From an uncultured Planctomycetota bacterium (GTDB lineage Bacteria > Planctomycetota > Phycisphaerae > UBA1845 > UTPLA1), in NCBI GenBank assembly GCA_900696465.1, contig CAADGE010000048.1:1-64000 (forward strand): a DNA stretch of 64,000 nt, in the 5' to 3' direction. The notes under the pieces were generated by a model that did not search any database, was not told the DNA's origin, and saw only the letters and a program-made list of their open reading frames with translations. Each line of letters opens with the position of its first letter. Within the stretch, counting starts at the first letter, position 1. The translations under genes and the position numbers were made by a program. Positions 16,414 to 37,237 of the stretch are shown here, in pieces.

Positions 16414-17829
16414 TCACGTCGTATAGCTTACCCGGCCGTGTTTTGTAGAGCGCGAGATTTTCTGATGGGCGTAGAGCCCGGCGAGCACAAACTCCACACA
16501 GGCGGCGCGCATCGCCGGGTCCTGCGACGGGTTGATCTCGAAGGCCTTCTCCCATGCCGGCGGGACTCGCTTGAGGCGCTCCGCATAGACCGAGGAGGGC
16601 AGCAGGTCGCCCACCTCGATGCTCACGCCCTTGCCGAAGAGGCCGGCGATTTCCTCAAATCCGTGCTGATCGCAATATTCGTCGAAGACTTTGCGGATTG
16701 CCTCGACCTGCACGGCTTCGATGACCTGTTGCTCGCTCATCTGATGGCTGCTCATCAGGTCCAGTTCGAGCTTGCCCATCGAACTGCTGGTCAGGTGGCC
16801 CAGGTCGCTGATGCGCGGGATGGCGTGGTCCTCGCCGAGTATGGCTACGCGCCGTCGGGCGCTGGCGATCATCGTGCGATAGTTGGCGATGGAGAAACGG
16901 GCGCTCACGCCGGACTGCGAATCGACGAAGTCGCTCTTTCGCGCTTCGATGGTGATCTGCTCGATGATCTCCTTCATGAAGAGCGGCACGCGAACAGGGA
17001 ACGGCCCGTCGAGGTCAATGCCGGCTTCCTGTTCCATGATGGCGATGCCGGTCTCGCGCTCGCGCGGGTAATGCGTACGAATGAGCGAGCCGATGCGGTC
17101 CTTGAGCTGTGGAATCACCTTGCCGCTGCGGTTGTAGGTCGATGGATTCGCAGAGAAGAGAATGACGATGTCGAGGTCGAACCGGATGGGGAAGCCGCGA
17201 ATCTGCACGTCCCGCTCTTCGAGGATGTTGAAGAGTCCGACCTGCACCAACTCATCGAGTTCCGGCACTTCGTTCATCGCGAAGATGCCGCGATTCATGC
17301 GCGGAATAAGCCCGAAGTGCAGGGCGTCTTCGGCGGACATGCTTGTACCCGCTGCCAGCTTGGCCGGGTCGATCTCACCGATGAGGTCGGCGAATTTCGT
17401 ACCCGGGGCGAGACGCTCTGCATAGCGTTGCTCACGCGGCCACCAGGCGATCGGTGTTGCATCGTCTTCCGCGGCGATCATTCGTCGGGCATGCTGGCTG
17501 ATCGGCCGCATCGGGTCGTCGTGCAACTCGCTGCCGGCGACGTAAGGTATCTCCGCATCCAGCAGGCGGACGAGCCCGCGCATCAGGCGGCTCTTGGCCT
17601 GGCCCTTCTCGCCGAGAAAGAGCATGTCGTGTCGGGCGAGTATGGCGAGGCAGACTTCGGGAATGACTGTGTCTTCGTAGCCGATGATGCCGGGGAACAG
17701 GTCATCATGGGCGGAGAGGAGCTTGAGCAGGTTGTCGTGCAGTTCCTGCTTGACGCTCTTGGACTTCCAGCCCGAATCCTTCAATTCGCCCAGGGTGCGC
17801 GGTCGTGTCACGGTCAGAGTCGTGCTCAT
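16414..17829 (-). CDS. MoxR-like AAA+ ATPase (magnesium-chelatase-like)
   Basis: 471 residues. A Walker A-like loop [20 protein letters not shown] lies near residue 72. Then come [20 protein letters not shown] (Walker B region, with N in place of the usual D before E), [16 protein letters not shown], and sensor 1 [16 protein letters not shown]. These are features of the MoxR/ChlI AAA+ clade, chaperone-like ATPases that often work with a VWA-domain protein. The C-terminal region (after about 320) is helical. No VWA partner adjoins it; the zeta-like gene follows downstream. The start ATG lies just before a 267-base gap. Confidence 0.88.
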
Positions 17830-23662: not shown

Positions 23663-23979
23663 GGTTACATGTGAGCCAGAAGCAGTGCTGGCGGGCTCGC
23701 TACGGCCTCCAGCTGACTGTCGATCTTACTCGAAGTCAAAAAACGGCTCAAGAAAACAGCTCCTCAAGCCCATTCCAGTCAGGCACTTAGGACACATCTG
23801 ACCGGCTCCAGCAAAATCGCCGTGGTTCTCCGTGGCCGCCCTTTTGGAGCGCGCCGGGGCTGTTTTACGCAGAGTGACGGGAAGGCCGGGTGTCGGCCGG
23901 CGATGAAACAAGCCAGGCGGGAGTTCTCGACTGCCATGAGGAAAGTCGAAGTCCCGCCGATCGGGAGAAAGGCAGAACC
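23663..23979. other. Divergent upstream region of sigma factor and RCC1 protein
   Basis: 317 bases between the leftward sigma-factor start and the rightward RCC1-protein start. It should contain both promoters. Apart from the leader hairpin at 23916-23958, listed separately, I see no gene or repeat. Confidence 0.45.
23916..23958 (+). promoter_or_regulatory. Leader hairpin upstream of the RCC1-protein start
   Basis: GGCGGGA...TCGACT (23916-23932) pairs with AGTCGA...TCCCGCC (23944-23958): two stems of six and seven pairs, with a small internal loop and an 11-base apical loop. The ribosome site (GAGAAAGG, about 23965) follows within ten bases. It could influence translation or mRNA stability; no known riboswitch class is recognised. 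Confidence 0.4.
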
Positions 23980-26900
23980 ATGTACGCGACACATGCAGAC
24001 CGCATGAATCGGATGGGGTGGATGGGTTGTCGTTGGACGGCGGCGCTGTTCGTCACTTTGACGTGCATGGCAGCGCCACAGGCGGCATTGGCGGAAAGCG
24101 GCTCGATCGTGGCGTGGGGAAGGAACAGCTACGGTCAGACCAACGTGCCTGTGCCGAATAGTGACTTCGTAGCCATCGCCGGGGGCGACAACCACAGTCT
24201 TGGCCTGAAGGCCGACGGCTCCATCAGGGCTTGGGGAGACAACTTTTACGGTCAGCGCAACGTGCCTATGCCCAACAGCGGTTTCGTGGCGATCGCCGCC
24301 GGCGAATCCTACAGCATTGGGCTAAAGGACGACGGCTCGATTAGGGCGTGGGGAAAGAACGACTGGGGACAGACCATTGTGCCCGCGCCCAACAGCAACT
24401 TCATCGCCATCGCGGCCGGCTCCAATCACGGCATGGGGCTGAAGGCCGACGGCTCGATCGTGGTGTGGGGAGCCAACTTCTCAGGTCAACGCATCATACC
24501 TGAGCCCAACAGCGGCTTCGTCGCCATTGCGGCACGGGGCAACCACTGCATGGGGCTGAAGGCCGACGGCTCGATCGTGGCGTGGGGGTACAACGGCTAC
24601 GGTCAGACCAACGTACCTGCACCCAACAGCGACTTTGTGGCCATTGCATCCGGCGGGGACCACAGCTTGGGGCTGAAAGCCGACGGCTCGATTGTGGCGT
24701 GGGGCAGGAACCATTTCGGACAGACCGACGTACCGTCGCCCAACAGCGGTTTCGTGGCGCTGACGGGCGGCCTGTTCCACAGTCTGGGGCTCAAAGCCGA
24801 CGGCTCAATAGTCACATGGGGGCAGAACGACGACGGCCAGACAAACGTGCCGTCGCCCAACACTCGCTTCGCAGCCGTCGAGGGCGGCTGGTGGCACAGT
24901 CTCGGCATTCAAGTGCCAAATGGCGCGTGCTGTCTGCCCAATGGCTTCTGTATCGAAACGACCCAGACGGCCTGCGGCTGGCTGGACGGTGCCTGGCAGG
25001 GCGCGGACAGCACTTGCGCGAGCGGTCCATGCGCTCCTAGTGAAAGCGGCTCGATCATTGCCTGGGGCCGTAACGAGGTCGGTCAGCTCAACGTCCCCGC
25101 GCCAAACGAGAATTTCGTCGGTGTCGCCGGCGGACGCTGGCACGGCCTGGGCCTGAAAGCCGACGGCTCCCTCGTCGTCTGGGGTGACAACTCCTACGGC
25201 CAGCACAATATCCCATCGCCCAACAGCGGCTTCGTGACGGTGGCGTCGACGCTCGGCAGCCACTGCCTGGCCATGCGCGCCGACGGCTCTGTAGCGGTGT
25301 GGGGCAACAACTCCAGCGGGCAGTCCAATCCACCGCCCAACAACGTCGGATTCGTGAAGGTCGCCGGCGGGCGGCAGCACAGTCTGGCCCTTCGGCCCAA
25401 CAGCGAGATCGCCGGCTGGGGGCGCAACGACGAGGGCCAGTTGAATGTGCCCGCGCCCAACCGAGACTTCATCGACATGGCCGGCGGCGAGTTCTTCAGT
25501 CTCGGCCTTAGGTCGGACGGTTCGATCGTCGGCTGGGGAAGTAACGCCTCCGGGCAACTCAACATTCCGTCGCCGAACAGTGGTTTCGTGGCGGTCGCGG
25601 CTGGCGCGAACCATGGTCTCGGCCTCAAGGCGGATGGCACGATCGTGTGCTGGGGAAGCAATGGCGCGGGACAACTCAATGTGCCCTCACCGAACTCCGA
25701 CTTCATCGCCGTGGAGGCGGGCTGGAACTTTTCACTGGGTAAAAAGGCCGACGGCAGCGTCGTCGCCTGGGGTCTCAACAATTTCGGTCAGACCGACGTA
25801 CCGGCACCGAACGACAGCTTCGTGCTGCTGGGCGGCGGCGGCGAACATTTCGGTCTGGCCCTGCGCGTGCCGAAGGGGGCGTGCTGTCTTCCCGACTTGC
25901 AGGGTTGTTCCGTGCTGTCGGAAGCCGAATGCACCGCCTCGGGCGGCACATGGGACGGCCCGGACACTACGTGCGAAACCGACTCCGACGGCGACGGTGT
26001 GCCGGATGCCTGCGACCTGTGCCCTGACACGCCACCCGGTGCGGTCGTCGACGCCGACGGCTGCCCGGCGCCGACGGGCGCGTGCTGTTTGCCGAATGGC
26101 CTATGTCTCGAAACGAGGGAGTCGGCCTGCGGCTGGTTGGATGGCGCGTGGCAAGGCCCGGACAGCATGTGCTCGGGCAGCCAATGTGCTCCCGGTGAAA
26201 GCGGCTCGATCGTGGCGTGGGGTAAGAACGACTTCGGTCAGACCAACGTCCCTGCGCCCAACAGCGGCTTCGTGGCGATTGCGGGCGGCGCGGACCATAG
26301 CATGGGGCTCAAGCAGGACGGATCGATCGTGGCGTGGGGAAGGAACAACTTCGGCCAGACTGACGTCCCTGCGCCCAACAACGGCTTCGTGGCCGTCGCG
26401 GCCGGCCGGTCTCACAGTCTGGGGCTCAAAGCCGATGGCTCGATCGTCGCGTGGGGATGGAACGATAACGGTCAGACCAACGTGCCATCGCCCAACAGCG
26501 GCTTCGTGGCGATCGCGGCCGGCAGCGACCACAGCATGGGTTTGAAAGCAGACGGCTCGATCGTGGCGTGGGGATCCAACTTCTTAGGTCAGACCAGTGT
26601 CCCTGCGCCCAACAGCGGCTTCGTGGCCATTGCGGTCGGCATGTACCACAGCATGGGTCTGAAGGCAGACGGCTCGATCGTAGCGTGGGGAATGAACAAC
26701 TTCGGTCAGACTAACGTACCTGCGCCCAACAACGGCTTCGTGGCCATCGCGGCAGGCTTTTGGCACAGCGCGGGGCTGAAAGCGGACGGCTCGATCGTGG
26801 CGTGGGGAAGCAACAACTTCGGTCAGACTAACGTACCCGCGCCCAACAGCGGCTTCGTGGCGATTGCGGCAGGCGACTTTCATTGTGTCGGTTCGAAAGC

Positions 26901-28278
26901 GGACGGCTCGATTGTGGCGTGGGGAAGAAACGACTACGGTCAGACGAACGTCCCTTCGCCCAACAGCGGCTTCGTGAGCGTCGCGGCCGGCGGGTTGCAC
27001 AGTCTCGGCCTTCAATTGCGGATGGGAGGATGCTGTCTTCCCGCCGCACAGGGTTGCAGTGTCCTGTTGGAAGCCGAATGCACCGACGCGGGCGGTAACT
27101 GGGGCGGTTGGCTTACAACATGCGAAACCGATACCGACGGCGACGGCGTGCCGGATGTCTGCGACAACTGCCCGGGCGTTTATAACCCGGATCAACTCGA
27201 TACCGACGGTGACGGCGTCGGCGACGCCTGCGACAACTGTCCGATGATTCCCAATTCCGATCAGCTCGACAGCGATGCAAGCTGGAGTGCGCTCTCTCCG
27301 GCCGCGATCTGGTTGTTCGATGAAGGCAGCGGCACGGTAGCCGCGGATTCGGTCGGCAACCTCGATGGCGCGCTGGTGGGCGGCGCGAGCTGGACTACAG
27401 GGCAATCGGGGACCGCTGTATCGCTGGACGGGGTCAACGACCACGTGGCGATTCCGAATGATGCGGCGTTGAACTTCTCCGCTGGCAGCGACTTTGCCGT
27501 CACAGTTTGGGCAAATGTGGCCGCGGTACAACTGGACACCGTGGCGATCGATAACTCGATCGTTGAGAAATGGAGCGGCGGCGGCGGTTATCCGTATGTG
27601 ATCCGCTATCTCAATCAGACCAGCGGCGCGAGTGCCGGCCGGGTGGTCGCGATCCGCTACGACGGCAGCGCGGCGGCATCGGTCACTTCGGTGTCCACCA
27701 TTGGCGGCGGCTGGCACCACATTGCGTTTGTCCGCAGCGCGGGGACACTCCGTCTGTACATCGACGGAGTGGAGGAGGCCTCGGCGCCAGATACGACCAG
27801 CGGAAATACCACGAACAGTTCGCCTCTATACCTGAGCTGCCGGGGCGGCGTCAGTCACTTCCTCGACGGCGTCATCGACGAAGTGGGTGTGTTCGGCAGG
27901 GCTCTCAGTGCGTCAGAAATTCAGCATCTGATGACCACGGGATTGACCCCGTCGGATGGCATCGGCGACGCCTGTGACAACTGCCCGGACGTTTCTAACC
28001 CGGATCAGGCGGATTCAGACGGCGACGGCATTGGCGACGCCTGCGATCCGTGTCCGACCGTGCCGGGGATCGTCTGCGAAGTGCTCGGCGACATGAACTG
28101 CGACGGCGTGCTCGACCTGGACGACGTGCCGGCCATGGTGCTGGCGCTGCTCGATCCCGACGGATACGCCGCGCAGTATCCCGCGTGCGACATTCTGAAC
28201 GGCGACCTGAACGAAGACGGCAGCGTCGACGGCCTCGACGTGCAGGAGTTCCTCAACGCTCTGCTTGGAAGCCCATGA
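23980..28278 (+). CDS. Giant secreted protein: three 7-blade RCC1 propellers, LamG, dockerin-like tail
   Basis: 1432 residues; ATG 23980 has AGAAAGG at seven bases. A signal peptide ends near ALA-ES (residue 39). Then come three groups of exactly seven RCC1-like blades, each about 39 residues (SIVAWG-x-N-x2-GQTNVPAPN...GLKADG), separated by GACCLP cysteine modules. Thrombospondin-type-3 calcium motifs ([15 protein letters not shown]) follow and are split by a LamG/concanavalin-like domain ([20 protein letters not shown] to [15 protein letters not shown]). The tail ([20 protein letters not shown] to end) is dockerin-like. It is probably an extracellular adhesive or binding protein. Blades of the third propeller are nearly identical in DNA, so it expanded recently. 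Confidence 0.9.
26197..27020 (+). repeat. Near-identical tandem repeats encoding RCC1 propeller 3
   Basis: Seven units of about 117 bp encode SIVAWG...GLKADG blades. Stretches such as TCGATCGTGGCGTGGGGA and CCCAACAGCGGCTTCGTGGC recur almost unchanged, whereas blades of propeller 2 have drifted. This points to recent expansion or gene conversion within the third block. The same array makes large false ORFs on the reverse strand. Confidence 0.85.
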
Positions 28279-28419: not shown

Positions 28420-28590
28420 ACTGCCCTCAAACTGCCCTCAAAAGGCACCGCGAGACGGTAAAAAACCGTGGAGGCACAGAACATCAGCGAGACGGGCGAA
28501 GTCGTTGTCACTTCGGAGGTTGGGCGATAAACTGAGCGCGCGGCAGAGTTTGAGAAAACGAGGGAGATCGATTCCCCCCCCTCTCCGTTT
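28420..28590 (+). repeat. Cassette repeat copy A, ending in a tRNA-Ser 3'-end mimic
   Basis: Starts with the doublet TGCCCTCAAA-C-TGCCCTCAAA (28422-28442) and continues through CACCGCGAGACGGTAAAA and GGGCGATAAACTGAGCGCG. It ends in GATCGATTCCCCCCCTCTCC plus GTTTC. The last 22 bases match the tRNA-Ser(GCU) T arm and acceptor end with one mismatch. From 28431 to 28586 it aligns with copy B, same length (156 bases), at roughly 80% identity by eye. It follows the RCC1 gene on the same strand. Confidence 0.8.
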
Positions 28591-28753
28591 CATTTTGCAG
28601 GCAGTTCACATTCACTTGATTCTCGCGCACTTACGAGAATCTCTCGATTCTTGACGCCCGGCGACCCTTATACTGTCCACCAAGCTGTTAGAATGGAGTC
28701 ATCAATTCCTGCGGCCTCGGTGAGGGTTTCAACACTGTTCAAGAGGGAGGGTG

Positions 28754-31675
28754 ATGCTGTCTTCATTAACGTTCCTTCGATGCTTGGCCAACAGCAGCGT
28801 GCGGTGCACAGTCGCGCTGGCTGTAATGGGCTGGTTGATGTTCGCATCGGTGGCCATCGGCGCGGATCGCGCGTCGAATGCGGCTGATCGTCCACCGGAG
28901 GGCATCTCCACCTCGGACTGGTCGAGCATCCGCGCGGCGTACGAGGCGAATCGTCACGCGGCGTTTGCCGTCGATGGGGGCTGGCAGGCGCGGAACCCCG
29001 GCCAGCAGTGGCGGACGCAATTCGATTGGCGTGGGTTTGAGACGACGCCCGACGGAGGCGGGTGGTCATGGGGGCTGGAGCTGGTGAGTTACGGGCGCAG
29101 GGGCGCGGAGTGCAATCCGAGCCGCGCTCCCGGCTCGTCAGAAGGAGTGAGCTCACTGCCGGTGTGTGTGCAGGCCGACGGGAGTCGCGTCGAATACAAG
29201 TGGGATGACACGCTGACGGAATGGTACGTCAATGATCGTCGCGGGCTGGAGCACGGGTACACGGTTCATCAGCGGCCGATAGGAATTCGCGCCGTGGCGT
29301 CCGCGCAGCGCAGCTTAGCCGCGCGGGCTGAAGCCCGCAGCTCTTTTGAGGAGCCGTTGACATTCACGCTGGCGGTGCGCGGGAATTTACGGCCGCGCAT
29401 CAGCAGCGACGGACGGAATGTGACATTCGTCAACGAGGCCGGCGTGGCGGTGGTGAACTACAACGGGTTGACGGTTTTTGACGCCACGGGGACAGGCGTG
29501 CCGGCGTGGTTTGAGGCAATCGATGGTTCTGACGGGCGAGACACCCGTATCACTTACAATCACTCGTACGGGCGAGACGCCCACACCACCCAAGAAACCC
29601 CACCCGCCTATGCTGGCGTGACCGCGAAACTTCTGCGGCTGGTCGTCGACGATTCGGAGGCCGTCTATCCGCTCACCATCGACCCGATCGCCCAGCAGGC
29701 CTACCTCAAGGCCTCGAACACCGGGGCGGGCGACCAGTTCGGCTACTCCGTGGCCGTCAGCGGCGACACGGTAGTGGTTGGGGCGCGGTGGGAGGACAGC
29801 AGCGCCACGGGTGTGGACGGCAACCAAGCTGACAACAGCGCAACCAATTCCGGCGCAGCTTACGTCTTCGTCCGCGATGCCGGCGGCGTATGGACGCAGC
29901 AGGCCTACCTCAAGGCCTCGAACACAGAGTTGGGCGACGAATTCGGCTTCTCCGTAGCCGTCAGCGGCGACACGGTGGTGGTCGGCGCGTATCTGGAAAG
30001 CAGCAGCTCCACCGGAGTGAACAGCAACCAGGCCGACAACAGCGCCCCCACATCCGGTGCGGCTTATGTCTTCGTCCGCGACGGCAATAGCGTCTGGAGC
30101 CAGCAGGCCTACCTCAAGGCCTCGAACACCGGGGGGGGCGACAATTTCGGCTTCTCGGTGGCCATCAGCGGGGACACGGTAGTGATCGGGGCGCCCTTTG
30201 AAGACAGCAGCGTTACCGGTGTGAATGGTAATCAATCCAACAACAACGCGACCCAATCCGGCGCGGCCTACGTCTTTGTCCGCAGCGGAGGCATCTGGAG
30301 CCAGCACGCCTACCTCAAGGCCTCGAACACCGGAGAGTCTGACTTCTTCGGCTATTCCGTGGCCGTGAGCGGCGACACGGTGGTTGTCGGGGCGTATTTG
30401 GAAGACAGCAGCGCCACGGGGGTTGATGGCGACCAGGGCAACAACAATGCACTCGATTCCGGCGCGGCGTATATTTTCGTCCGCGACGGCAATGGCGTCT
30501 GGAGCCAGCAGGCCTACCTCAAGGCCTCGAACACCAGGTTTGGCGACACTTTCGGCCGCTCCGTGGCTGCGAGCGGCGACACGGTGGTGGTCGGGGCGCC
30601 GCAGGAGGCCAGCAGCGCCACGGGAGTGAACGGCAACCAGGCCGACAACAGCGCGATCGATTCCGGCGCAGCTTACATCTTTGTCCGCAACGGCGGCGTA
30701 TGGACGCAGCAGGCCTACCTCAAGGCCTCGAACACCGAAGCGATCGACAGGTTTGGCTGGTCCGTGGCCGTCAGCGGCGACACGGTGGTAGTCGGGGCAT
30801 ACTTGGAAGACAGCATCGCCACGGGGGTTAATGGCGACCAGGCCAACAATAGCGCCGGCGATTCCGGCGCGGCGTACGTCTTCATCCGCGACGGCGATGG
30901 AGTCTGGAGCCAGCAGGCGTATCTCAAGGCATCGAACACCGGGGGGTCCGACCACTTCGGCAGGTCCGTGTTCGTCAGTGGTGACACGGTAGTGGTCGGG
31001 GCGTATCAGGAGGACAGCAGCGCCACCGGCGTTAACGGCAACGAGGCCGACAACAGTGCCCTCAATTCCGGCGCTGCGTACGTATTCACCGGTCTGGGGC
31101 CGGACACGGACGGCGATGGCGTGCCCGACTCCATCGACGGTTGTCCGAACGATCCGATGAAGATCGCGCCGGGCGCGTGCGGCTGTGGCAATCCCGACGT
31201 CGACACCGACGGCGACGGGACTGCGGATTGCGTGGACGACTGTCCGAACGATCCGATGAAGATCGCGCCGGGCGCGTGCGGCTGTGGCAATCCCGACGTC
31301 GACACCGACAGCGATGGGATAGCGGATTGTGTGGACGACTGTCCGAACGATCCGATGAAGATCGCGCCGGGCGCGTGCGGCTGTGGCAATCCCGACGTCG
31401 ACACCGACGGCGACGGGACTGCGGATTGCGTGGACGACTGTCCGAACGATCCGAACAAGACCGATCCCGGCGCGTGCGGGTGCGGCGTCGCCGACACGGA
31501 CGAGGATGGTAGTGGCATTGCCGATTGCAACGAGACGTCGGCCCTGAACCCGACCCTGTCTGACGGCCTCTGCGGCTGCTTGAACTGCGCTTCCGGCACG
31601 GCCACGGTTCTGCCGATGCTGTTGGTCGGCATGGGCTTCATCAGGCGGCTCCGGGAGAAGCAGTCTCGGTGCTGA
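28754..31675 (+). CDS. Secreted FG-GAP propeller protein with Ca repeats and sorting-like tail
   Basis: 973 residues; ATG 28754 (a GTG just before it is also possible) with AGAGGGAGG upstream. The signal peptide ends about residue 37. A 260-residue N-terminal domain is followed by seven FG-GAP/integrin-alpha-like units of about 66 residues (AYLKASNTG...FGxSVAVSGDTVVVGA...SGAAYVFVRD). Four thrombospondin-3-like units follow (CPNDPMKIAPGACGCGNPDV, then DTDGDGTADCVDD). The C-terminus has CGCLNC, a hydrophobic stretch (TATVLPMLLVGMGFI) and RRLREKQSRC. This is the tripartite layout of a C-terminal sorting signal, though not plain PEP-CTERM. A cell-surface protein is inferred. Confidence 0.9.
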   Translation: MLSSLTFLRCLANSSVRCTVALAVMGWLMFASVAIGADRASNAADRPPEGISTSDWSSIRAAYEANRHAAFAVDGGWQARNPGQQWRTQFDWRGFETTPDGGGWSWGLELVSYGRRGAECNPSRAPGSSEGVSSLPVCVQADGSRVEYKWDDTLTEWYVNDRRGLEHGYTVHQRPIGIRAVASAQRSLAARAEARSSFEEPLTFTLAVRGNLRPRISSDGRNVTFVNEAGVAVVNYNGLTVFDATGTGVPAWFEAIDGSDGRDTRITYNHSYGRDAHTTQETPPAYAGVTAKLLRLVVDDSEAVYPLTIDPIAQQAYLKASNTGAGDQFGYSVAVSGDTVVVGARWEDSSATGVDGNQADNSATNSGAAYVFVRDAGGVWTQQAYLKASNTELGDEFGFSVAVSGDTVVVGAYLESSSSTGVNSNQADNSAPTSGAAYVFVRDGNSVWSQQAYLKASNTGGGDNFGFSVAISGDTVVIGAPFEDSSVTGVNGNQSNNNATQSGAAYVFVRSGGIWSQHAYLKASNTGESDFFGYSVAVSGDTVVVGAYLEDSSATGVDGDQGNNNALDSGAAYIFVRDGNGVWSQQAYLKASNTRFGDTFGRSVAASGDTVVVGAPQEASSATGVNGNQADNSAIDSGAAYIFVRNGGVWTQQAYLKASNTEAIDRFGWSVAVSGDTVVVGAYLEDSIATGVNGDQANNSAGDSGAAYVFIRDGDGVWSQQAYLKASNTGGSDHFGRSVFVSGDTVVVGAYQEDSSATGVNGNEADNSALNSGAAYVFTGLGPDTDGDGVPDSIDGCPNDPMKIAPGACGCGNPDVDTDGDGTADCVDDCPNDPMKIAPGACGCGNPDVDTDSDGIADCVDDCPNDPMKIAPGACGCGNPDVDTDGDGTADCVDDCPNDPNKTDPGACGCGVADTDEDGSGIADCNETSALNPTLSDGLCGCLNCASGTATVLPMLLVGMGFIRRLREKQSRC
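31142..31500 (+). repeat. 99-bp tandem repeat, four units
   Basis: Units start at 31142, 31241, 31340 and 31439, each 99 bp or 33 codons. The first three are almost identical; the fourth diverges after CCGAAC. They encode CPNDPMKIAPGACGCGNPDV plus DTDGDGTADCVDD, a Cys-containing calcium-type repeat within the FG-GAP protein. Confidence 0.9.
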
Positions 31676-32127
31676 CATCTCCTGCGGTGCGATCGAACCA
31701 ATGATCGCCGCGTTGACGGCGCAGATGTGCAGTGCTTTGCAGACGAAATCCTCGGGCAGTGTTCCGGACAACCGTTTGACATGGGTTGTGACCGGGACCG
31801 GTGTTCTCAACTGTCGAATAGACATTCGACCAGATGGATGGTCGTTCCGTGAAAGCGATCGGCGCGCTTACCTGAAAGCGGTACTGCCAGGATGCTTGGC
31901 CGGGAGTCTGTGTACTGCCCATAAAACGCGCCGCGAGACGGTAAAACAACCGCAGATGCACAGGGCAACAGCGAGACGGATGAAGTTGTTGTTACTCTTG
32001 AGGCCGGGCGATAAACTGAGCGCGGCCGAGTTTGAGAAAACGAGGGAGATCGAATTTCCCCCCTCTCCGTTCCTCTTTGTGTACCTGATCGATTGAGGCA
32101 ACCCTCTTAACAGGTAGCAGGTGAATT
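31676..32127. other. Gene-free spacer holding repeat copy B
   Basis: 452 bases between the FG-GAP gene and the Gly-rich lipoprotein gene. Copy B occupies 31914-32069. The 240 bases before it show no motif. The 58 bases after it contain the leader and ribosome site (AGGTGA) of the lipoprotein gene. Confidence 0.5.
31914..32074 (+). repeat. Cassette repeat copy B, ending in a tRNA-Ser 3'-end mimic
   Basis: 156 bases align with copy A from ACTGCCC to CTCTCCG. Shared blocks include CGCGAGACGGTAAAA, GGGCGATAAACTGAGCGCG and GAGAAAACGAGGGAGATCGA. GGCC flanks GGGCGATAAACTGAGCGC on both sides and would pair; in copy C the same positions are GGTC and GACC, also complementary. It follows the FG-GAP gene on the same strand. 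Confidence 0.8.
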
Positions 32128-33165: not shown

Positions 33166-33686
33166 AACGGCCGGACAGAAGATCTGCATCCCCCACACGG
33201 CACAGCGAGGTGGCCAAGCGGCTTGATGTGGCGATTTCGAACTGGCGCCACCATGAACGAAACAATCTGCGGCTGCACCAAGTACGCTGCACGGTCATTG
33301 CGGCTCATGGGCTTCGAAAATCTCTTCTCCGGTTAGCCAATCGGCCTGAGAACGCACACCGCATGCCCCTGCGTGCTCCTTTTACCGCACTCGAAGCGCA
33401 TGACGGGGTTGAAAGAATCAATCGTGGGGGATCAAGCGCTTCTCGAGACGGGCGATGTCGTTGTCGCTCTTGAGGTCGGGCGATGAACTGAGCGCGACCG
33501 AAATTGAGAAAACGAGGGAGATCGAATCTCCCCTCTCCGATTTCTTCTATTCAGACGCTTTCATTTGCAGTCGTTTCGCGGCAGATGGTCATGCGCCGAA
33601 CAGCATGACTCGGCTTGACATGCGGGCCTGCGGGTTTGATGCCGAGTGCTGCATGATCATCGCGTCAACAGACTTCAGCACATCCT
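33166..33686. other. Gene-free region holding repeat copy C
   Basis: 521 bases between the lipoprotein gene and the convergent solute-binding protein gene. Copy C is at 33445-33539. A stretch at about 33206-33245 (GAGGTGGCCAAGCGGCTTGA onward) is roughly two-thirds identical to the 5' half of tRNA-Ser, possibly a decayed tRNA. The frame through it also reads SEVAKRLDVAISNW, so its nature is uncertain. Confidence 0.45.
33445..33539 (+). repeat. Cassette repeat copy C, truncated, with tRNA-Ser 3'-end mimic
   Basis: 95 bases from GAGACGGGCGATGTCG to CTCCCCTCTCCG align with the 3' two-thirds of copies A and B. GGGAGAT-CGA-ATCTCCC at the end is a perfect seven-pair hairpin in the place of the tRNA T arm. 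It follows the Gly-rich lipoprotein gene on the same strand. Confidence 0.75.
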
Positions 33687-34574
33687 TCAGCTTGATTTCG
33701 ATGCAGGATTGATCGGAAAAAAGATCGGTCGGTCATCCAGTTGCCCGATGCCGAATGTGGCGATGAAGGTCTGCGTCTCTTCTGAGGTGAGAAATTGCTG
33801 AAGCTGCGTAGCGGCATGATGACGCAGGGGTGTGCTGCGTGTGACTGGTACGACTCCCACGAGATAAGGTCGTCGCAAGGCAGGATCGCCTTGCACCATC
33901 AGTACGAGTCCCTGGTTCTCCATCCTTCCGGAGAGGAACGGAATCCGACCGACCAATGTGTAAGCATTCATGGCCGCAGCGCGTTTGAGTACCTCGCGAT
34001 GACGGTCTACGAGCAAGATGCTCGTCTGCTCTTCGGAGAGCTCGACACCTGTTCGATTCATCACGTCCTTCAATACCCCCTGTGCGCCGAGACTGGCATG
34101 TACGAGGAATCGGCTGTTTGACGAGCGAATCCTGCGGATCGCCTCTCCGGCATCCGTCAGGCCGCGAATGCCGGCCGGGTCCGTCGGAGGTCCGACGATG
34201 ACCAGATCGTTCCGAAGCCACGGTTGCAGGTTCTCAAGATATCCGTCCGCCGCGAGGTTCACGATCGTATCGCTGCTGTGTATGGTGACCAGATCGATTC
34301 CGCCTTGACGGACGGCATCGTCGATGACTTGCTTGGGCCCGGTGGCCACCATCTCGATGGTATGGCCGGTGGCTTCCTCAAAGCGATGGCTAAGTGCCTG
34401 CCAAAGACCCGTGTGCGTCATGCCTCCGACGACCGCGACATGTATCTTCTGTGGTGATCCGGGCGCAGCGGTTGTTTCAGGTGCGTTAGTCGGCGGTCTG
34501 CACGAGGCGATGATCAGCGCGGCCAGTGCCAGTCCCGACCACACGGGAAGGTATCTTCCAGTTTTATCGTTCAA
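33687..34574 (-). CDS. Solute-binding lipoprotein, TupA/oxyanion-binding-like
   Basis: 295 residues. The start is TTG 34572-34574, which overlaps the upstream stop as TTGA and has AGGAG six bases before it. ALAALIIASC is a good lipobox (Cys25). The periplasmic-binding fold resembles tungstate-type TupA proteins: VVGGMTHTGLWQALSHRFEE, VATGPKQVIDDAVRQGGIDL and LRNDLVIVGPPTDPAGIRGL. The usual SRGD-x-SGTH oxyanion motif is absent; the matching place reads SNSRFLVHASLGAQGVLKDV, so ligand or role may have changed. There is no permease or ATPase gene nearby. It is the last gene of a three-gene leftward operon. Confidence 0.85.
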   Translation of the reverse strand: MNDKTGRYLPVWSGLALAALIIASCRPPTNAPETTAAPGSPQKIHVAVVGGMTHTGLWQALSHRFEEATGHTIEMVATGPKQVIDDAVRQGGIDLVTIHSSDTIVNLAADGYLENLQPWLRNDLVIVGPPTDPAGIRGLTDAGEAIRRIRSSNSRFLVHASLGAQGVLKDVMNRTGVELSEEQTSILLVDRHREVLKRAAAMNAYTLVGRIPFLSGRMENQGLVLMVQGDPALRRPYLVGVVPVTRSTPLRHHAATQLQQFLTSEETQTFIATFGIGQLDDRPIFFPINPASKSS

Positions 34575-35341
34575 CGTCCTCTCCTGAGCAGCATTCCGCA
34601 TGCGCCGAGCGCGAGCAGCCCGATGCTTGCGGGCTCCGGAATGTATGTGATGGTCAGCACCGGTCGTATATCGTCTGCCACGACAGGTCCGCCCGCGGCT
34701 TCGCGGCTGTAGAACCGGCGCATCAGGTTGTTTGCCGATTCGACACCAATGGCGATCCAGCCGTGGTTCTGTCCGGGGTTGTCGAGCCAGTTCTGAACGT
34801 CAGTAACCAGCAGTGCGGAGGACCACGTATGAACGGTATCGATCGAATCGCCGTGCACCATTGCAAAAGCTCGTGAGAGCGGGTCGAAGTCGCCGCCAGG
34901 CGTTGTCCATTCCGTTGTGTTAAACGCGGAATAGCGCCAAGTGGCTGATCCGTTGGTAGCCGGAGCGCCGCCCGCCGGCGGGTTGGCCGTTGAGTTTCCA
35001 CCTTCCTGCCAGGGGGCAGTCAGCCGGAAGAGATCCACGCGTTGCGCAGCGGGCTGGCCGACAGGCGGCTGGGTCATCGTCAGAATGACATCGACGATGG
35101 TTACGCCCGCTGGTAATTCTGAAGCAATGTCGAACCAAAGAAGGCCGCGCCGCAATTCAGTTGCATTGTTGCGACGACCGACGGCCATTTGCGTGGCAGC
35201 CCCATTGTTGTTGTCAAGCTGTTCAGCGTAGATCGTATCGTCCATGCCCGGCAGGATGTTGATGACGGCTGCATGGCCCGAACTCGTCGTGGCGAACGCC
35301 GCTGCGGCGCAGGTAACGGCAAGAAGCATCATTCTGTGCAT
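34571..35341 (-). CDS. PEP-CTERM surface protein, DNRLRE-like
   Basis: 256 residues from ATG 35339-35341, nine bases after AAGGAG. A signal peptide ends near GHAAV (residue 25). One beta-rich domain follows: LPGMDDTIYAEQLDNNNGAA, RRGLLWFDIASELPAGVTIV and WSSALLVTDVQNWLDNPGQN. This is the layout of DNRLRE-type carbohydrate or surface domains. The C-terminus is a textbook PEP-CTERM signal: IPEPASIGLLALGACGML then LRRGR. The tail is expected to be cleaved by an exosortase, fixing or releasing the protein at the cell surface. The gene overlaps the downstream binding-protein gene by four bases. Confidence 0.88.
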   Translation of the reverse strand: MHRMMLLAVTCAAAAFATTSSGHAAVINILPGMDDTIYAEQLDNNNGAATQMAVGRRNNATELRRGLLWFDIASELPAGVTIVDVILTMTQPPVGQPAAQRVDLFRLTAPWQEGGNSTANPPAGGAPATNGSATWRYSAFNTTEWTTPGGDFDPLSRAFAMVHGDSIDTVHTWSSALLVTDVQNWLDNPGQNHGWIAIGVESANNLMRRFYSREAAGGPVVADDIRPVLTITYIPEPASIGLLALGACGMLLRRGR

Positions 35342-35400
35342 TACTCTTTCTCCTTCTGTCATACTTTCGTTGACTGCTTCGAGTTGATGATCTCTGTCGC

Positions 35401-36153
35401 CTATTGCGGCCCGGGCCAAATGCTTTCCGGATCAAACCACTGCACATCTTCTCGCTTGGGGTCTCCTGCTCCGCAGCCGATCGCGCTGCCGGTGAAGGCA
35501 GATACATGACCATCCAGGAACAAAATATTGATCGAGCCGCGATGACGAACATCCGGATTCCACGGCGCGGAGGAAGGCAGGACGCTGGAGCGTGGCCCCG
35601 GACCTTCCGTCAGCAGCACGAGTGACGCGGGCTTGGGGATACGTTCTTGCTTCGTTGGATATGCGTCGTTCCAGGTCGATACGCGCATGCTCATGGCATA
35701 CGCGAGCCAGACAAATCCGAGGTCAGCGGGACCGGCAGGACAATTCCAGATTCCGGTATCACCGGGTCGGGGGCGCCGTCCGTCAATGAAACGCTGTTGC
35801 AGACTCGACTCGCCCAGCATGACTGGTACGGCATTGAACCAGTCGTCCGCACGGTCGATCTGTGTAGTTACCTGCAATCCCTGGCCGCGGCGGGGAAGAA
35901 ATCCGCTGAACTCCTGCGCATAGTATTGAAAGCCGCGCCCCCATGTGCTGAGCGTTGCCAGACAGGCACTCTGCCGTGCCGTTGCCCTCGCTGCGGAGAG
36001 CGAGGGAAGGAGAATCGCTACCAGGAACGCCTGAATTGCAATTACAATGAGAAGTTCAATGAGCGTTAGCCCGCGATCGGGGAATTTGTGAAATGGCCGA
36101 AGTGCCGCAGTCGGGCAGGGCGAAAATCCAACGGCTAGCTTCCCTCGCGCCAT
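35401..36153 (-). CDS. Pseudopilin with H-X9-DG processing signature
   Basis: 250 residues from ATG 36151-36153. A prepilin-type N-terminal motif is at about residue 27: DRGLTLIELLIVIAIQAFLV, i.e. G, hydrophobic pair, E at +5, then a hydrophobic helix. The C-terminal region has HRGSINILFLDGHVSAF, where H is followed nine residues later by DG: the H-X9-DG signature of the large planctomycete type II secretion-like family. Such proteins are cleaved by prepilin peptidase and held in the inner membrane. Target unknown. It heads the leftward operon with the PEP-CTERM and binding-lipoprotein genes. Confidence 0.88.
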   Translation of the reverse strand: MARGKLAVGFSPCPTAALRPFHKFPDRGLTLIELLIVIAIQAFLVAILLPSLSAARATARQSACLATLSTWGRGFQYYAQEFSGFLPRRGQGLQVTTQIDRADDWFNAVPVMLGESSLQQRFIDGRRPRPGDTGIWNCPAGPADLGFVWLAYAMSMRVSTWNDAYPTKQERIPKPASLVLLTEGPGPRSSVLPSSAPWNPDVRHRGSINILFLDGHVSAFTGSAIGCGAGDPKREDVQWFDPESIWPGPQ

Positions 36154-36166
36154 GTTTCGGGTACAA

Positions 36167-36185
36167 TTGTATCTAGAAGATACAA
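36167..36185. promoter_or_regulatory. Perfect palindrome, candidate operator of the divergent genes
   Basis: TTGTATCT-AGA-AGATACAA: eight paired bases with a three-base spacer, in the middle of the 34-bp gap between the leftward pseudopilin gene and the rightward regulator gene. Its right edge is two bases before the regulator ATG. A dimeric XRE protein bound here would block both transcripts. Binding is inferred. Confidence 0.6.
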
Positions 36186-36187
36186 GT

Positions 36188-37237
36188 ATGTCAATAACAG
36201 CCAACATCCGAAATCGAGTCTGCGAGGAACGTTCCCGCCGCGACTGGTCGCAGGCGGAACTGGCCCGTCGTGCAGGGCTGTCTCGAGCCGAGGTGAGCGC
36301 GATCGAAACGGGGAGGATAGTACCGTCAACGGCTGTTGCTCTGGCCGTTGCCGGTGCAATGGGTTGCACCGTTGAAGAGCTATTCAGTCTTGCTGATACG
36401 GCACACGCGGAGCCGCCATGGGCATGGGAACCGCTCCACCCGGCCACTCGATTCTGGGTAGCCGAAGTGGGTGGGAAGCTTCTTCGATTTCCGGTCGAGC
36501 CGTCGGCAAGCGGGTACATTGCCCACGACGGTGTAGCGGGAATGTCGACTCCGGTGAATTATCAATTCATCGCGCAAAAGACACTGATCATAGCCAGTTG
36601 CGATCCGACAGCCGGATTGCTGGCGGCCGAGATGAACCGACGCCACGGGCTTCGTGTGATTGTTCTTAGCCGAGGCAGCCGAGCGGGTCTTGAGTTGCTC
36701 CGTCGAGGGCTTATCCATGCCTCTGGTGTGCATCTGGCCGATGACGAGCACCCTGATGGCAACGTCAAGGCAGTCACCGAGATGATGGGGCCTGGACACC
36801 GTTTGCTGAGCGTCGCGCGATGGGAGGAGGGTATTGCACTTTCGCCCCGCCTTGGCATGCGGACCGTCTCCAGCTTGTTTAAGAAGTCCGTTCGCTGGAT
36901 CGGACGGGAGCCGGGTTCGGGTGCGAGACAGTGCCTCGACATGCTGTTTGCAGGTCGAGTTGCTCCGAAAGCCATTGCGCACAATCACTCTGAAGTCGCG
37001 ATGGCCATTCGCGGAGGGTCGGCGGATGCCGGCGTCTGCGTTCGCGTGACTTCCGACGAACACGGTCTTTATTTCCTGTCGGTGAAGTTGGATCACTACG
37101 ATCTGTGCATCTCGGAAGCCAACGAGCCGAGGTTGGAAGCATTGGTTGATGCAGTTCGTTCCCCGACCTATCGACAAATGCTTAATGAAATCCCCGGCTT
37201 CTCCGCAGCCAGCGGAGAAACGATTGCTGCCGTCTGA
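36188..37237 (+). CDS. XRE-family regulator with PBP-like (PF12727-type) sensor domain
   Basis: 349 residues. The N-terminal helix-turn-helix is RDWSQAELARRAGLSRAEVS followed by AIETGRIVPSTAVALAVAGA. From about residue 90 a periplasmic-binding-protein-like domain follows: IIASCDPTAGLLAAEMNRRH, GLRVIVLSRGSRAGLELLRR, PKAIAHNHSEVAMAIRGGSA and DAGVCVRVTSDEHGLYFL, like the PF12727 domain of molybdate-type regulators. It therefore probably senses a small ligand in the cytoplasm. Divergent transcription from an operon that includes a TupA-like lipoprotein suggests control of that operon. The start is ATG 36188; the frame opens 36 bases earlier inside the neighbour's 5' end. Confidence 0.88.
   Translation: MSITANIRNRVCEERSRRDWSQAELARRAGLSRAEVSAIETGRIVPSTAVALAVAGAMGCTVEELFSLADTAHAEPPWAWEPLHPATRFWVAEVGGKLLRFPVEPSASGYIAHDGVAGMSTPVNYQFIAQKTLIIASCDPTAGLLAAEMNRRHGLRVIVLSRGSRAGLELLRRGLIHASGVHLADDEHPDGNVKAVTEMMGPGHRLLSVARWEEGIALSPRLGMRTVSSLFKKSVRWIGREPGSGARQCLDMLFAGRVAPKAIAHNHSEVAMAIRGGSADAGVCVRVTSDEHGLYFLSVKLDHYDLCISEANEPRLEALVDAVRSPTYRQMLNEIPGFSAASGETIAAV

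Follow-up and report, generated by a model that had tools for sequence, protein, structure and literature searches.

In a window of 64,000 nucleotides from an uncultured Planctomycetota bacterium (GenBank assembly GCA_900696465.1, contig CAADGE010000048.1, positions 1 to 64,000 of the forward strand), a regulator with an XRE helix-turn-helix and a PF12727 ligand domain stands back to back with an operon for a pseudopilin, a PEP-CTERM surface protein and a TupA-like lipoprotein. Why is a regulator of this kind paired with pilus-like and surface proteins, and to what might it respond? We propose a repressor responsive to molybdenum or tungsten (Mo/W) which controls an extracytoplasmic cassette, free of an ATP-binding cassette (ABC) transporter, for acquisition or sensing of the metal, and we judge this proposal about equally likely to be right or wrong. 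The original prediction, made from the letters alone, had seen in the same genes a surface module that captures or senses an anion and reports inwards, an interpretation which the present analysis partly supports.

The divergent locus

The four-gene locus was confirmed in the window and comprises the following features, listed by coordinates and strand:

36188..37237, +: regulator with XRE (HTH_3) and PF12727 PBP_like domains, 349 aa (profile search and alignment; start set by alignment and operator position)
36178..36193: predicted operator box 2, AGATACAAGTATGTCA, 11.0 bits, at the regulator start codon in the conserved -10 position
36166..36194, -: sigma-70-like promoter TTGACA-17-TACAAT of the pilin operon; both boxes overlap it
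36159..36174: predicted operator box 1, GGGTACAATTGTATCT, a degenerate copy of TGACAsgATcATGTCA, 6.0 bits
36154..36187: intergenic gap of 34 bp, largely taken up by the two boxes
35401..36153, -: pseudopilin, leading gene of the leftward operon, with prepilin N-terminal motif, LPRRGQGLQ and a GCGAGDP C-terminus
34571..35341, -: secreted protein with a DNRLRE (CBM96-like) domain and a PEP-CTERM sorting signal
33687..34574, -: lipoprotein of the TupA fold with lipobox IIASC and replaced oxyanion motifs

Both domains predicted for the regulator were recovered well above cut-off (HTH_3, E 1.5e-11 and 44.6 bits against 23; PF12727, E 2.3e-36 and 125 bits against 27). The pilin ATG lies at 36153 and the regulator start that agrees best with the alignment of relatives at 36188, leaving exactly the 34 bp that had been described. 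The tight coupling of the last two genes was likewise seen in the sequence: in TTGA the stop of the PEP-CTERM protein overlaps the TTG start of the lipoprotein, which follows a good ribosome-binding site, AGGAGAGG.

The pseudopilin carries a prepilin motif (TIGR02532, 21.9 bits, cut-off 16.3; PF07963, 22.9 bits, cut-off 21.2), scores below the DUF1559 cut-off (PF07596, 13.5 bits against 23.3) and also stays under that of TIGR04294; its structure model, at a predicted local distance difference test (pLDDT) score of 44.6, is too poor past the first helix. The surface protein exceeds the cut-offs for the DNRLRE domain (63 bits, cut-off 34) and for the PEP-CTERM signal (PF07589, 21.9 bits, cut-off 20.7; TIGR02595 likewise).

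The regulator family and its operator

Among 294 genomes of the phylum, a search for PF12727 yielded six full-length XRE relatives with context, of which four stood directly before ModABC-like genes and two were divergent from a pilin. Searching a genome collection with an alignment of the phylum relatives gave 59 loci from Planctomycetota, Verrucomicrobiota, Acidobacteriota, Sumerlaeota and others, five of which appear identical to records already taken in the phylum search. In the alignment the window regulator keeps the motifs common to the ModABC-linked members, and the subfamily motifs SCDPTAG and GREPGSGARQCLD are retained. The host genome holds a single PF12727 match, and in 60 genomes of the same order no full-length match to either the regulator or the lipoprotein was found; consequently, close relatives give no test of the adjacency. 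In the regulator tree the window protein falls outside the Verrucomicrobiota clade, which suggests that different regulators took up the cassette independently; since a single clade is compatible with the approximately unbiased (AU) test (p 0.365), this is not claimed. The PF12727 domain also occurs in a MoeA of Desulfovibrio vulgaris, which was inferred to be necessary for the tungsten cofactor of Aor (PMC10102598), and that paper cites Rajeev et al. 2019 (doi 10.1111/1462-2920.14500) for a regulator family of tungstoenzymes and molybdate/tungstate transport.

Of 60 loci, 57 show a palindrome of 16 bp, TGACAsgATcATGTCA, across the start codon of the regulator gene; it is frequently accompanied by another copy at a distance of 19–23 bp. 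Sites of at least 15 bits are concentrated at the regulator, with 71 near it (6.3 per kb) against 7 in 620 kb elsewhere (0.011 per kb). Among these seven distant sites, the one in L079 precedes a displaced pilin, the one in L099 a DNRLRE/PEP-CTERM/lipoprotein operon and the one in L108 the gene of a TonB-dependent receptor, after which a PF00174 gene follows. In Isosphaeraceae-type loci the pilin has a separate operator pair. Singulisphaera acidiphila (L076) carries the regulator together with an orthologous pilin that has an operator pair to itself.

The window gap contains two degenerate copies, GGGTACAATTGTATCT and AGATACAAGTATGTCA, spaced 19 bp apart and including the perfect inverted repeat TTGTATCT-AGA-AGATACAA. 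The pilin-operon promoter which they overlap matches in 11 of 12 positions (one found against 0.1 expected in shuffles). Control of the surface operon by the regulator through these predicted boxes is well supported at the level of sequence, and the evidence points opposite to the inward signalling that had been proposed, from the intracellular regulator to the surface operon via the 34-bp gap.

A wider regulon in the host genome was sought with the window box pattern; the one extra exact match (L138) lies inside a coding gene, a one-mismatch match at window position 17336 lies inside an open reading frame, and both were taken as chance. As a separate observation, one Verrucomicrobiota locus (L113) carries two identical, inverted operator copies, which together make a perfect inverted repeat of 37 nt at the start codon, with arms of 17 nt around a centre of 3 nt.

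Pilins, lipoproteins and ModABC genes in relatives

Neighbourhoods were counted where the flanks were good, in 38 loci. ModA together with ModB was present in 20, a pilin within 3 kb in 20 and a window-type lipoprotein in seven; 36 held at least one of pilin, lipoprotein and ModB, and six held pilin and ModB together. The curated cut-off was exceeded by all six ModA proteins sampled and by one of two ModB proteins, which supports the tie of the regulator family to oxyanion uptake. Pilin and ModABC apparently form a single operon in L092, two loci (L095 and L126) show the order regulator-PF00174-pilin-ModABC, and L115 holds an additional TOBE (molbindin-like) protein and the beginning of a ModA gene. 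Taken together, the neighbours support a link of the regulator family to oxyanion (Mo/W) uptake.

Pilins keep close to the regulator. In the approximately 564 kb scanned across the 59 loci, 21 of 27 pilin motifs fell into the 112 kb within 1 kb of the regulator (15 upstream, all divergent, and six downstream); the other six were spread over the remaining ~452 kb, and beyond 2 kb the density was near zero. Furthermore, the regulator-adjacent pilin of L092 finds as its best match, by coordinates, the other genome's own regulator-adjacent pilin in six of seven genomes (E 1e-107 to 1e-158), the next paralogues reaching 4e-59 or weaker, i.e. about 48 or more orders of magnitude apart. A Singulisphaera genome holds 150 or more pseudopilin paralogues; since the regulator-adjacent pilins find each other before these many paralogues, their company is not due to abundance.

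The full cassette of regulator, orthologous pilin, orthologous lipoprotein and DNRLRE/CBM96-like protein was found in five Verrucomicrobiota loci (L106, L113, L115, L116 and L117), where the DNRLRE matches often lie below the curated cut-off. Their pilins share 37–40% identity and the motifs LPRRGQG and GCGxGDP with the window pilin. DNRLRE-like genes occur also in L099 and L200, and in L086 a protein similar to the window DNRLRE protein adjoins the pilin (2e-26). In L099 and L120 the lipoprotein is accompanied by a PEP-CTERM protein and long pilin-like proteins, which in L120 include a Verru_Chthon cassette A protein. Adjacency had been set beforehand as the decisive check of the original prediction, and the gene company is indeed kept in these distant relatives.

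Because the 59 loci were gathered via the regulator, its company with the cassette is ascertained; the positional enrichment of pilins and one regulator-free locus lessen this bias and do not remove it. That locus (L200), the sole sample collected without the regulator, is the one further true member from a lipoprotein-first search of 392 Planctomycetota genomes (387 bits; next 159 or less). It encodes DNRLRE-dockerin protein, orthologous pilin and lipoprotein consecutively, so the trio is kept, and its short contig shows no regulator. Canonical TupA loci of Planctomycetota were rejected as cassette relatives (159 bits or less against 387–419 for the lipoprotein family); in the two that were opened (L201 and L202) an ABC gene adjoins and a pilin of the cassette type is absent.

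The lipoprotein itself (295 aa from the TTG start) matches SBP_bac_11 (E 6.5e-13) and, by phmmer, Geobacter TupA (1e-15). Its AlphaFold2 model (pLDDT 82) superimposes on TupA 5my5 with Z 25.7 and a root-mean-square deviation of 4.2 over 243, on 3lr1 with Z 22.7 and on ModA with Z near 18, and the expected kinship to oxyanion-binding proteins therefore holds for the fold. Against the TupA equivalog NF041772 it reaches 40.1 bits where 400 are required. Alignment to solved TupAs confirmed the suspected lack of the SRGD/SGTH motif and revealed that all three contact loops are exchanged: TTTST for VIGGM(T), TDRGT for VGxIP and SRGDxSGT for FxGxGS in the family (HASLGAQG in the window). Oxyanion capture by the lipoprotein, as originally envisaged, stays a conjecture. 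The replacement motifs VIGGMT/GxGS/VGxIP stay conserved across the lipoprotein family, which speaks for a changed but retained pocket or interface rather than decay. As L113 and L120 encode, beside the lipoprotein, a complete ModABC with a separate ModA, it is improbable that the lipoprotein serves an ABC importer as its usual partner. The idea of matching sensors inside and outside holds at the level of the superfamily only, because the binding domains of regulator and lipoprotein fall into different Pfam families of one superfamily.

The host genome, a 4.14-Mb draft (96.8% complete), supplies an exosortase (PF09721, 185.6 bits), six full-length secretion/pilus ATPases among 18 PF00437 matches and four PF00384 molybdopterin-enzyme matches. 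Its five PF00528 permeases are by gene context of nitrate/taurine (Ssu/Tau), sugar and amino-acid type; no ModB/TupB-type permease was found in the whole of this draft, in agreement with the predicted lack of an oxyanion-type ABC partner.

Outer-membrane proteins, namely TonB receptors and porin O/P, are further neighbours of the regulator family. In two Verrucomicrobiaceae loci (L108:2391-4838 and L104:3492-5906) the regulator lies near a pair of TonB-dependent receptor, assigned in L104 by sequence resemblance alone, and small PF00174 protein; this pair, in L108 with its own operator copy, is a candidate outer-membrane Mo/W receptor. Small secreted PF00174 (molybdopterin oxidoreductase-like) proteins also stand between regulator and pilin (L095:7061-7630, L126:2092-2664, L102:5303-5884) and are possibly periplasmic Mo binders rather than enzymes. 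At L123:748-5593, genes for porin O/P, a phosphate-type binding protein and a permease-like product run divergently from a regulator relative, a context in which the family may serve phosphate too.

In the window, an interspersed repeat of ~105 nt (65–83% identity) recurs at 28488-28592, 31972-32076 and 33444-33548, downstream of three consecutive surface-protein genes and beside the end of the lipoprotein operon. Two large secreted proteins are encoded nearby, an RCC1-like repeat protein with 117-nt repeats (23890-28278) and an FG-GAP protein with repeats of ~204 nt (28751-31675).

Possible roles and known systems

According to the proposal, which gives the simplest account, the cytoplasmic regulator would be an autoregulated repressor responsive to molybdate/tungstate. 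Once its PF12727 domain holds ligand, it would occupy the two palindromic boxes over its own start codon and the divergent operon promoter, and the operon would be expressed when the metal is scarce. The dedicated pseudopilin may then employ the type II secretion or type IV pilus machinery of the cell, and the CBM96-like protein would be retained at the surface through PEP-CTERM/exosortase sorting. Jointly with the TupA-fold lipoprotein, both might assist in the acquisition or sensing of free or complexed Mo/W outside the inner membrane, in a step for which the cassette would have no dedicated ABC transporter. We infer the identity of the ligand, repression rather than activation, the role in acquisition or sensing, and any contribution of pilin and CBM96-like protein to Mo/W handling, whereas the gene anatomy, the conserved operator, the repeated co-occurrence, the ModABC link of the regulator family, the TupA fold and the presence of secretion ATPases and exosortase were established by computation. 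The ModABC, TOBE, PF00174, TonB receptor and porin O/P neighbours resemble stages in the uptake of oxyanions, and the slot they take is the one that the pilin cassette fills; that the cassette recurs in distant bacteria may point to a surface route, not yet described, by which molybdenum or tungsten is gathered or sensed.

Several observations weigh against this proposal. The window boxes are weak (6.0 and 11.0 bits), and several unrelated window sites score 9–14 bits; score alone would not pick the boxes. Since these scores are modest, the case is carried by the position, spacing and near-perfect symmetry of the boxes. The lipoprotein has lost the TupA contact motifs. Furthermore, phosphate is possible for some family members because the regulator in L123 neighbours a phosphate-type binding protein and porin O/P.

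The metal could be a signal only. The regulator would then read Mo/W status, for example at a switch to nitrate respiration or another molybdoenzyme lifestyle, while pseudopilin and surface protein would work in attachment, in secretion or in the binding of polymers and the lipoprotein would be a secretion accessory instead of a nutrient binder. DNRLRE/CBM96 is indeed a carbohydrate-binding type of domain, the lipoprotein lacks the TupA contact motifs and adjoins long pilin-like proteins in L099 and L120, and many Planctomycetota loci have the pilin without the lipoprotein. Pilins and ModABC nevertheless share loci, in L092 apparently one operon, and the other neighbours of the regulator include outer-membrane proteins of the uptake type, so that we regard this explanation as rather less probable, yet one to be taken seriously. 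Alternatively, phosphate, arsenate, a further oxyanion or an organic anion might be what the cassette handles, with the regulator adapted to it; this appears unlikely. The conserved pocket set peculiar to the lipoprotein family, porin O/P beside the regulator in L118 and L123 and the binding protein in L123 would fit such a ligand, whereas the window regulator retains the motifs of ModABC-linked members and the lipoprotein loci L113 and L120 also hold ModABC. Finally, abundant pseudopilin and PEP-CTERM genes might merely have landed here: a Planctomycetota genome can hold 150 or more paralogues, and close relatives of the window lack regulator and lipoprotein. The positional enrichment of pilins, the orthologous pairs retained across phyla and the operator held in common make such a chance neighbourhood highly improbable, and in its strong form it is already refuted.

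Returning to the proposed Mo/W cassette, a broader version is put forward tentatively and with more doubt than belief: a surface system for acquiring or sensing Mo/W or metal complexes in Planctomycetota, Verrucomicrobiota and Sumerlaeota, which would combine pseudopilus, CBM96/PEP-CTERM protein and ABC-less TupA-fold lipoprotein under a dedicated Mo/W repressor, with ModABC, TonB receptor, porin and PF00174 protein as interchangeable parts. In the literature searched, whose coverage leaves out most subscription journals, we found neither a paper joining molybdate to pseudopilin, prepilin or PEP-CTERM nor a description of such a module. If true, a pilus-like extracytoplasmic step would be added to Mo/W nutrition. 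Position, sequence relationship and the operator held in common link one orthologous pseudopilin group to a molybdate-type regulator. This places a class of the Planctomycetes pseudopilins, of which some genomes hold a hundred or more without an assigned role, in a physiological setting that can be tested. The regulator family and its 16-bp operator are open to experimental check, and the relatives include cultured hosts, Singulisphaera acidiphila and Aquisphaera insulae.

Among known systems, TaoR proteins, which the 2019 work of Rajeev and colleagues is said to have described as tungstate-responsive regulators of tungstoenzymes and Mo/W transport, pair an excisionase-like DNA-binding domain with a periplasmic-binding-protein (PBP)-type ligand domain. 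The window regulator resembles them in this pairing and differs in its XRE/HTH_3 domain, in the 16-bp operator over the start codon and in its pseudopilin targets. With ModE the family shares a palindromic operator and, in many relatives, the place beside ModABC, which suggests a similar role by analogy; in profile searches, however, the window regulator showed PF12727 instead of the HTH_1 (LysR-type helix-turn-helix) and TOBE/Mop domains. The lipoprotein has the type II periplasmic-binding fold of TupA (5my5, 3lr1), but it lacks the contact motifs, the TupB permease and the TupC ATPase and scores far below TupA. Finally, the pilin shares with the DUF1559/H-X9-DG pseudopilins and Verru_Chthon cassettes a prepilin N-terminus, a C-terminal RHxxxxNxLFLDGH-like motif and the company of PEP-CTERM or cassette proteins, whereas it stays under the PF07596 and TIGR04294 cut-offs and belongs to an LPRRGQG/GCGxGDP subfamily tied to the TupA-like lipoprotein.

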